From contig NZ_SMDR01000001.1 in assembly GCF_006265115.1 (NCBI RefSeq), positions 1,612,001 to 1,676,000 on the forward strand: 64,000 nt of DNA, written 5' to 3'. Below are positions 41,116-42,256 of this stretch, piece by piece (position 1 is the first letter of the stretch; each line of letters opens with the position of its first letter). The notes under the pieces were generated by a model. It was not told where the DNA came from and did not search any database. It worked only from the letters and a program-made list of their open reading frames with translations. The position numbers and the translations under genes were made by a program. The DNA is from Arenimonas terrae. GTDB taxonomy: Bacteria > Pseudomonadota > Gammaproteobacteria > Xanthomonadales > Xanthomonadaceae.

Positions 41116-41982
41116 ATGGACACCACCGGAAGCCTTGCCTGCGTCGGCCTCGGCATGACCCTGGGCGCCCACCTGAGCCCGCGTGCGCGCAGCCATATCG
41201 AAACCGCCGACGTGGTCTTCGCGGCCGTGTCCGACCCGGTGGTGGAACTCTGGCTGCAGCAGATGCACCCGGACGTGCGCAGCCTCCAGCCCCTTTACGC
41301 CGAGGGCAAGTCGCGCCACGACACCTATCGCGAGATGGTCGAGGCCCTGCTCTGCGAAGTGCGCGCCGGTCGCCGCGTCTGCGGCGCGTTCTACGGCCAC
41401 CCGGGCGTATTCGCACAGGCTCCGCATCGCGCCATCGCACAGGCCAGGGCCGAAGGGTTCGAGGCCGTGATGGAACCGGGGATCTCGGCCGAGGACTGCC
41501 TGTACGCCGACCTGGGCATCGACCCCGGCACCGTCGGCTGCCAGCACTTCGAGGCCAGCCAGCTGATGTTCTACCGGCGCCGGATCGATCCCAGCGCCTA
41601 CCTGGTGGTTTGGCAGGCGGCCATCGCCGGCGACCGCAGCTTCCGCCGCTTCCTCACCAGCTCCGCCCACCAGCAACTGCTCGTTGACCTGCTGGCCGAG
41701 GACTACCCGTTGGACCACCCGTGCACCCTCTACGAGGCCGCGACCCTGCCCATCCAGGCGGCGCGGATCGAGGTGGTGCCCCTGCGTGACCTGCCACGGT
41801 CCGGTTTGCGTCTGCAGACGACCGTGGTGCTGCCCCCCGGCCGCGTCCTTCAGCCCAACGAGGACATGCTGGCCCGGCTGGCGGCGCTGGAAGCCAGTGA
41901 TCGAAGCACCCGCTCCACGCAGAACCGTTCCACCACCACCACTAGGGGAAACACCGATGTCGAACGTGATCTCGTTCCTTGA
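41116..41982 (+). CDS. Borosin-type peptide alpha-N-methyltransferase, split form (288 aa)
   Basis: A SAM-dependent enzyme of the tetrapyrrole-methylase fold (PF00590) expected to N-methylate backbone amides of a precursor peptide. The features fit SonM/OphM-type enzymes: VGLGMTLGAHLSPRA (residues 10-24), LYAEGKSRHDTYREMVEALL (60-79) with Tyr61, Arg67 and Tyr71 where the fungal OphMA has its catalytic Tyr/Arg/Tyr, FYGHPGVFAQAPHRAI (92-107) and PGISAEDCLYADLGIDP. No precursor is fused; instead the next ORF is the precursor. The Ser/Thr-rich C-tail overlaps the precursor gene by 26 bases. A cobalamin-type methylase is argued against by the tight match to borosin motifs and the neighbour. Confidence 0.9.
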   Translation: MDTTGSLACVGLGMTLGAHLSPRARSHIETADVVFAAVSDPVVELWLQQMHPDVRSLQPLYAEGKSRHDTYREMVEALLCEVRAGRRVCGAFYGHPGVFAQAPHRAIAQARAEGFEAVMEPGISAEDCLYADLGIDPGTVGCQHFEASQLMFYRRRIDPSAYLVVWQAAIAGDRSFRRFLTSSAHQQLLVDLLAEDYPLDHPCTLYEAATLPIQAARIEVVPLRDLPRSGLRLQTTVVLPPGRVLQPNEDMLARLAALEASDRSTRSTQNRSTTTTRGNTDVERDLVP

Positions 41983-42256
41983 GTCCCTCGGGCAGGATGC
42001 CCGCCTCGCCCGCCTGTCCGGAGACGACTATGCCGCCGCCGTTCGGGCGCTGCCGCTGGATGACGATGCCCGCCAGGCGCTGCTCGCCAAGGATGCCGGC
42101 GCGCTGAACGACCTGCTGGGCGGCCGCCCGGCGATGGTCTGCGCGCTGTTCCCCGCCGAGGACACCCCGGCCCGCGAGAACGACGATGGCGACACCCCGC
42201 AGGAAGACACGCCCGACGAGCAGAAGGAATCCATCGGCGGCCGCGGTCGCCACTGA
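41957..42256 (+). CDS. Borosin precursor peptide (99 aa)
   Basis: The substrate of the adjacent methyltransferase. Residues 1-56 resemble the helical borosin-binding domain of Shewanella SonA: VISFLESLGQDARLARLSGD, LDDDARQALLAKDAGALNDL, then GG at 55-56. A short hydrophobic strip RPAMVCALF (57-65) follows, at the same position as the methylated residues in SonA, and the C-terminus is an acidic Asp/Glu/Gln/Thr-rich tail (66-99) ending GGRGRH. I predict backbone N-methylation somewhere within residues 59-66. GGGGAA lies 7 bases upstream of the ATG. It overlaps the methyltransferase gene by 26 bases and is followed 8 bases later by the GGDEF gene. Whether the peptide is cleaved is unknown. Confidence 0.85.
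   Translation: MSNVISFLESLGQDARLARLSGDDYAAAVRALPLDDDARQALLAKDAGALNDLLGGRPAMVCALFPAEDTPARENDDGDTPQEDTPDEQKESIGGRGRH

Follow-up and report, generated by a model that had tools for sequence, protein, structure and literature searches.

Sequence comparisons indicated that the region 41116..42256 on the forward strand of the window (the whole stretch of 64,000 nucleotides that was analysed) almost certainly encodes a type IV split borosin pair, namely an alpha-N-methyltransferase and a discrete precursor peptide, and that this pair is very probably coupled in function with a membrane sensor containing a TPR region. As judged from the sequence, the pair lies in an apparent five-gene operon (39307..44034) that encodes a pepsin-like protease, a GNAT acetyltransferase, the methyltransferase, the precursor and a TPR-TM-GGDEF sensor. 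The explanation that we favor, and to which we give about an even chance, is that the operon produces an N-methylated peptide that serves as the ligand of the TPR sensor. The first-pass annotation of this DNA had stopped at the pair and had overlooked the linked sensor, protease and GNAT.

The methyltransferase and its precursor

The methyltransferase gene (41116..41982, + strand) encodes 288 residues and was assigned to the SonM-type borosin alpha-N-methyltransferases by phmmer and by its aligned catalytic residues. The phmmer search revealed that SonM (PDB 7ltc) was the closest solved protein, with a score of 268 bits and an E-value of 5e-79, followed by the fungal borosins of the MroMA/OphMA type (1e-49 to 1e-45). 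In the phmmer alignment, Tyr61, Arg67 and Tyr71 corresponded to Tyr58, Arg67 and Tyr71 of SonM, residues at which mutation affects catalysis (PMC8429565), and all three were invariant in 17 homologues with sequence identities of 55-77%. We also found each of the motifs that had been listed for this protein in the first-pass annotation, KSRHDTYREMVEALL (with Arg67 and Tyr71), FYGHPGVF and PGISAEDC, and the gene extends exactly as annotated there, with the ATG of the next ORF (41957) lying 26 bases inside it. Pfam placed the protein in the superfamily TP_methylase alone, which includes cobalamin enzymes too; this would fit an ordinary tetrapyrrole or cobalamin methylase with an unrelated short ORF beside it. 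However, the NCBIfam equivalogs for cobalamin and siroheme enzymes scored 11-19 bits, far below their cut-offs of 160-400 and the 268 bits of SonM, the borosin catalytic residues were conserved, and the precursor was related to SonA, which makes such a reading barely credible. Placement with the cobalamin methylases, the outcome that the first-pass annotation had named as counting against its proposal, was excluded, and identity as a cobalamin methylase was ruled out at the sequence level by equivalog scores under the cut-off.

The precursor gene (41957..42256, + strand) is a separate ORF of 99 residues with its own start codon, and a Shine-Dalgarno-like AGGGGA (41944..41949, + strand) is located eight bases before the ATG. 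Residues 1-53 (41957..42115) were assigned as the borosin binding domain, with SonA as the top match by both fold and profile. In the AF2 model, helices were predicted at residues 3-13, 15-18, 22-31, 36-43 and 47-53, with the remainder disordered, and this five-helix arrangement has the topology of SonA. The single precursor sequence matched SonA weakly (E 0.3-1.3), starting from residue 1 or near it, and a profile built from 25 relatives matched SonA at ~1e-5 across residues 1-55. The best fold matches were SonA chains and OphMA clasps, in a bundle whose 55 residues yield no significant E-value. The SonA-like helical binding domain that had been proposed for this ORF was thus supported by the profile, the predicted helices and the fold. 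A WD-40 match (2ymu) of the precursor profile was rejected as an artefact of weak summed repeats; no single stretch passed.

The binding domain is followed by the core MVCALFPAED at residues 60-69 (42134..42163) and by an acidic C-terminal tail at residues 70-99 (42164..42253), which was predicted to be disordered from the sequence and the AF2 model. The length of 99 residues, the hydrophobic strip MVCALF at residues 60-65 and the acidic tail were all present as previously described; additionally, Pro66-Ala-Glu-Asp directly follows MVCALF. Across 62 loci, the core consensus was hydrophobic-hydrophobic-Cys-x-hydrophobic-x-Pro-[Ala/Asp]-acidic-acidic, and the core sequence differed between clades. 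The L103 precursor contains four core units (SCLVFTPEE, YFCWVATPEE, YFCAVNTPELE and YFCGVLTPEELA), and this fourfold repetition suggests that the core motif is the unit of the product. We predict backbone N-methylation of the precursor within residues 60-65. A methylation window of residues 59-66 had been put forward earlier; residue 66 is a proline, whose nitrogen carries no hydrogen and cannot be alpha-N-methylated, so the window has to stop at residue 65. The methylated residues had also been placed at the same position as those of SonA, which are L63 and I65 (PMC8429565). The distance from the binding domain agreed with this placement, and by that distance A63 and F65 of the precursor may be the counterparts of SonA L63 and I65, but the alignment of the cores is statistically unsupported, the match being confined to residues 1-55.

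Several other precursors departed from this layout. The multi-core precursor of L103 (5402-5836, xxCxVxTPEE) is located 5' of a methyltransferase, and a TPR sensor was not found nearby. In L022 (6367-6789), imperfect DKDEEEIRxAA repeats are located 3' of the core region. The precursors of L017, L018, L021 and L025, from Luteimonas and a relative, have 76-83 residues with a seemingly truncated binding domain, while the core VMACVIMTPDGGE is kept. In L104, a 90-residue ORF with repeated HKAVLA segments (9799-10071) is flanked by a second methyltransferase gene and a GNAT gene; it was unmatched by the precursor profile and is perhaps a multi-core precursor of a different type.

The SonM match of 5e-79, the profile match to SonA of ~1e-5 and the conservation of the precursor ORF beside the enzyme, in dozens of genomes, argue that the pair did not arise by chance. 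All the sequence-level hallmarks of type IV split borosins that were open to testing agreed with the borosin reading. The window pair shares with SonM/SonA of Shewanella oneidensis (PMC8429565, PDB 7ltc) a discrete methyltransferase and precursor, the catalytic residues, the five-helix binding domain and a hydrophobic core right after it. In contrast, the window precursor has 99 residues rather than the 71 of SonA, a core containing Cys, a Pro-acidic motif and a long acidic tail, and its locus has overlapping genes with a linked pepsin-like protease and GNAT. The pair is a genuine split borosin, as had been recognized, but its interest was overstated: split borosins are known and widespread, a Streptomyces pair has already been validated (PMC8429565), and the window pair is an ordinary further member of the known type IV split borosins.

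Protease, acetyltransferase and a possible operon border

The first gene of the operon (39307..40554, + strand) encodes a pepsin-like aspartic protease of family A1 with 415 residues. The protein matched PF00026 at 4.9e-9 (36.5 bits, cut-off 19.9) and contained two LDTGSS catalytic motifs, in agreement with the two D-T-G-S/T motifs of family A1; its hydropathy showed no signal peptide. The protease gene is joined by an ATGA overlap to the GNAT gene (40551..41084, + strand), which encodes an acetyltransferase of 177 residues (PF13302, 1.8e-23) that is conserved beside the methyltransferase. Protease homologues occupied the same position in L005, L007, L009 and L014; overall, at least 23 of 112 loci had a protease homologue and at least 51 of 113 had the GNAT, counts that were obtained with single queries and are lower bounds. 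We consider it probable that the adjacent protease is the maturation protease that processes the precursor, and the GNAT is a more tentative candidate for acetylating the peptide once it is freed.

Lee et al. reportedly found in 2024 that the bacterial pepsin shewasin A cuts a borosin precursor. The window protease is likewise pepsin-like and without a signal peptide, and in loci L143-L147 the methyltransferase gene lies between a protease and a GNAT gene on its upstream side and a TPR-GGDEF sensor gene downstream; unlike the cleavage by shewasin, cleavage of the window precursor by the window protease is a candidate activity. Shewasin has been described as a bacterial pepsin homologue (PMC4814920).

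An intrinsic-terminator-like hairpin with a 10 bp stem and T8 (39256..39287, + strand) may be the upstream border of the operon, in a region where three terminator-like sites were found versus 2.6 expected, which is no enrichment over chance. Further upstream, a minus-strand gene for a sigma-factor-like protein adjoins a plus-strand subtilase (S8) gene (36325-38228), and this pair was also conserved in other Arenimonas (L012, L095 and L124). A second GNAT gene (44076-44594), conserved mostly within Arenimonas, was left out of the system as defined here.

The TPR sensor and its linkage to the borosin pair

The sensor gene (42265..44034, + strand) starts eight bases after the precursor stop and encodes 589 residues, with a signal peptide at residues 1-27, a TPR superhelix at ~30-350, a transmembrane segment at 387-405 and a GGEEF cyclase domain with an RxxD I-site at 416-573 (PF00990, 4.9e-40). 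In the structural model (pLDDT 89), the TPR superhelix extended to about residue 314 and was followed by a single long helix that crosses the membrane into the GGDEF domain. The GGEEF motif was present in the window's sensor and in 70/71 sensors, consistent with the GG(D/E)EF motif expected of an active diguanylate cyclase, and a positive charge (K/R) was found C-terminal of the transmembrane segment in 61/71. The signal peptide and the one transmembrane segment with K/R on its C-terminal side predict that the TPR region is outside the cytosol and the cyclase inside.

A survey of 247 Lysobacteraceae genomes revealed that 71 contained both a split methyltransferase and the TPR region, 2 the TPR region alone and 171 neither, while in three the methyltransferase was present and the sensor absent (Fisher 1e-55, a p-value that is merely indicative because the species are not independent). 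The sensor was downstream on the same strand at 72 of 76 split methyltransferases, with a median gap of 478 bp. The abundance of GGDEF genes does not explain this link, since, of the 43 GGDEF loci in the window's genome, a single one has a TPR region of this kind. The same link was present in 19/20 Alteromonadaceae loci and in 20/20 loci of the Shewanella order; these include a 93% SonM orthologue, presumably of Shewanella origin, likewise adjoining a TPR-GGDEF gene, where the sensor starts one base past the SonA-like stop. No TPR sensor was found at the distant split methyltransferases L066-L070; the link is thus a trait of the SonM-like clade rather than a universal one. In L067, L069 and L070, which represent a different cluster type, a short ORF lies upstream of the distant borosin-like methyltransferase, the TPR sensor is absent and some loci are near transporter-like genes.

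We found that the output domain of the sensor varied. It was mostly GGDEF, but was a hybrid histidine kinase in L064, L065, L122, L123 and L152, and L149 encoded two TPR proteins without an output domain. Units of precursor and sensor were duplicated in L029/L087, and in L129 such a unit was present without a methyltransferase nearby. Because the output is swapped while the TPR region is kept, and because precursor and sensor duplicate together, the TPR region rather than GGDEF appears to be the partner of the precursor. The L064 row, which contains a SonA-like precursor, a TPR hybrid histidine kinase, the methyltransferase and a TPR-GGDEF gene, has two TPR sensors per precursor. In the Arenimonas genome G512 (L124), the sensor was retained between unchanged flanks, the S8 protease on one side and the second GNAT on the other, and the protease, GNAT, methyltransferase and precursor were absent; this is possibly a receiver-only genome.

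A single-chain TPR-GGDEF-methyltransferase fusion of ~850 residues was the only form in 15 Lysobacteraceae genomes, and 2 more had both forms. These fusions would fit a TPR-GGDEF protein, fused or separate, that steers the methyltransferase, with c-di-GMP or the membrane protein recruiting or regulating the modification and the peptide not being a ligand; the divergence of the leader, which correlated with both the TPR region and the methyltransferase, points the same way. However, the membrane is predicted to separate the TPR region from both the methyltransferase and the precursor, L129 pairs precursor and sensor without a methyltransferase, and L124 keeps the sensor without the four biosynthetic genes. 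We regard steering of the methyltransferase as improbable.

A proposed peptide signal and the alternatives

VIA-align was used with the full sensor model, the TPR part being neither folded nor searched alone. Among the best 50 rows, 10 matched the TPR part and 8 of these 10 were Rap receptors, led by 8rsv (Z-score of 25.1 over 310 residues, 4.3 Å), 4gyo (24.8) and 4i9c (24.3); the Rap rows overall showed Z-scores of 23-25 over ~300-310 residues with identities of 7-11%. The listed Rap structures were solved with peptide pheromones. The two other TPR-part rows among the matches listed were the degron receptor APPBP2, and the absence of other TPR families among these matches was given no weight. 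Foldseek with the whole sensor revealed only GGDEF domains as top matches. Given the identity of 7-11% and a TPR part that was not folded alone, the Rap likeness is a lead rather than proof; a TPR fold shared at this identity does not show function. The window sensor resembles the Rap-Phr/RRNPP receptors in the size and shape of the superhelix (Z ~25) and in a gene adjoining a small peptide precursor. In contrast to cytosolic proteins with a Rap phosphatase-type or DNA-binding output, it has a signal peptide, a transmembrane segment and a GGDEF output, is predicted to be membrane-anchored with a periplasmic TPR region and would bind a backbone N-methylated ligand; it was not classed as a member.

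In the proposed mechanism, a methyltransferase dimer in the cytosol would grip the precursor via the five-helix domain and methylate backbone nitrogens of the hydrophobic core (residues 60-65) using SAM. The pepsin-like protease would then release the core, which the GNAT would probably cap, and a small protease-resistant peptide would arrive in the periplasm. Hydrophobic N-methylated peptides can be membrane-permeable (PMC8429565), and the acidic tail would have to be removed before any crossing of the inner membrane. The peptide would finally bind the TPR superhelix and alter the diguanylate cyclase (c-di-GMP) output. Processing, export and binding to the sensor are steps that we infer.

The genetic coupling, the swapping of output domains, the duplication of units, the fusions and the Rap-like TPR model are the grounds for reading the mature peptide as the ligand of the sensor, a claim to which we assign slightly less than an even chance. 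Against it, no exporter gene was linked at the locus, the sensor is missing at the distant methyltransferases L066-L070 and in three Lysobacteraceae genomes that have the enzyme, and the covariation of core and sensor was weak. In partial Mantel tests, core distance correlated equally with the TPR and GGDEF domains (partial r 0.18 for both) and not with the methyltransferase; this covariation, being weak and not TPR-specific, speaks neither for nor against binding and was not used as proof of core-TPR co-evolution. The same co-occurrence data would also fit a conventional secreted natural product, in which case the TPR-GGDEF protein would regulate the cluster, responding to another cue or to the state of the envelope and governing production or life style. 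Regulators of the GGDEF type are common, with 43 GGDEF proteins in this genome, and GGDEF genes near biosynthetic genes could reflect simple regulation of production; cores that diverge between clades are also like those of effector natural products. However, the output domain is swapped while the TPR region stays constant, precursor and sensor duplicate as a unit, the TPR part resembles peptide receptors, and no transporter or immunity gene was consistently linked. We regard the secreted natural product as rather unlikely. Extending the ligand reading to the whole SonM/SonA clade, we tentatively suggest, at somewhat less than even odds, that its peptides are backbone N-methylated signals and not antibiotics, each read by a matching Rap-like TPR receptor in the periplasm that is encoded by an adjacent gene and acts on c-di-GMP or a phosphorelay.

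According to a structural paper from 2021, no split borosin pathway had yet been linked to a final product (PMC8429565). The adjacency of a sensor in nearly every relative suggests a testable signal role for these unexplained peptides. If the coupling is that of ligand and receptor, split borosin peptides would gain a function in the control of c-di-GMP, and the locus would represent a Gram-negative pheromone-receptor module based on backbone N-methylation, with natural peptide-receptor pairs usable for engineering. In the literature searched, which did not extend to the main genome-mining papers, no link was found between borosins and either TPR sensors or signalling by peptides.

The association with GGDEF has been noticed by others, as the Figure 1 legend of PMC11395268 names borosin architectures that include a GGDEF domain; a literature search for borosin together with GGDEF found nothing beyond this paper, and the novelty here thus lies in the proposed function. 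As in the window, GGDEF is tied there to some borosin type; unlike here, the legend states neither the type nor a role of the domain, and the accessible part of the text mentions neither TPR nor a sensing role. The fusion proteins of ~850 residues in L044-L060, with a SonA-like precursor of 73-76 residues just 5' in the loci read (e.g., L056), are possibly the GGDEF architecture drawn in that figure.
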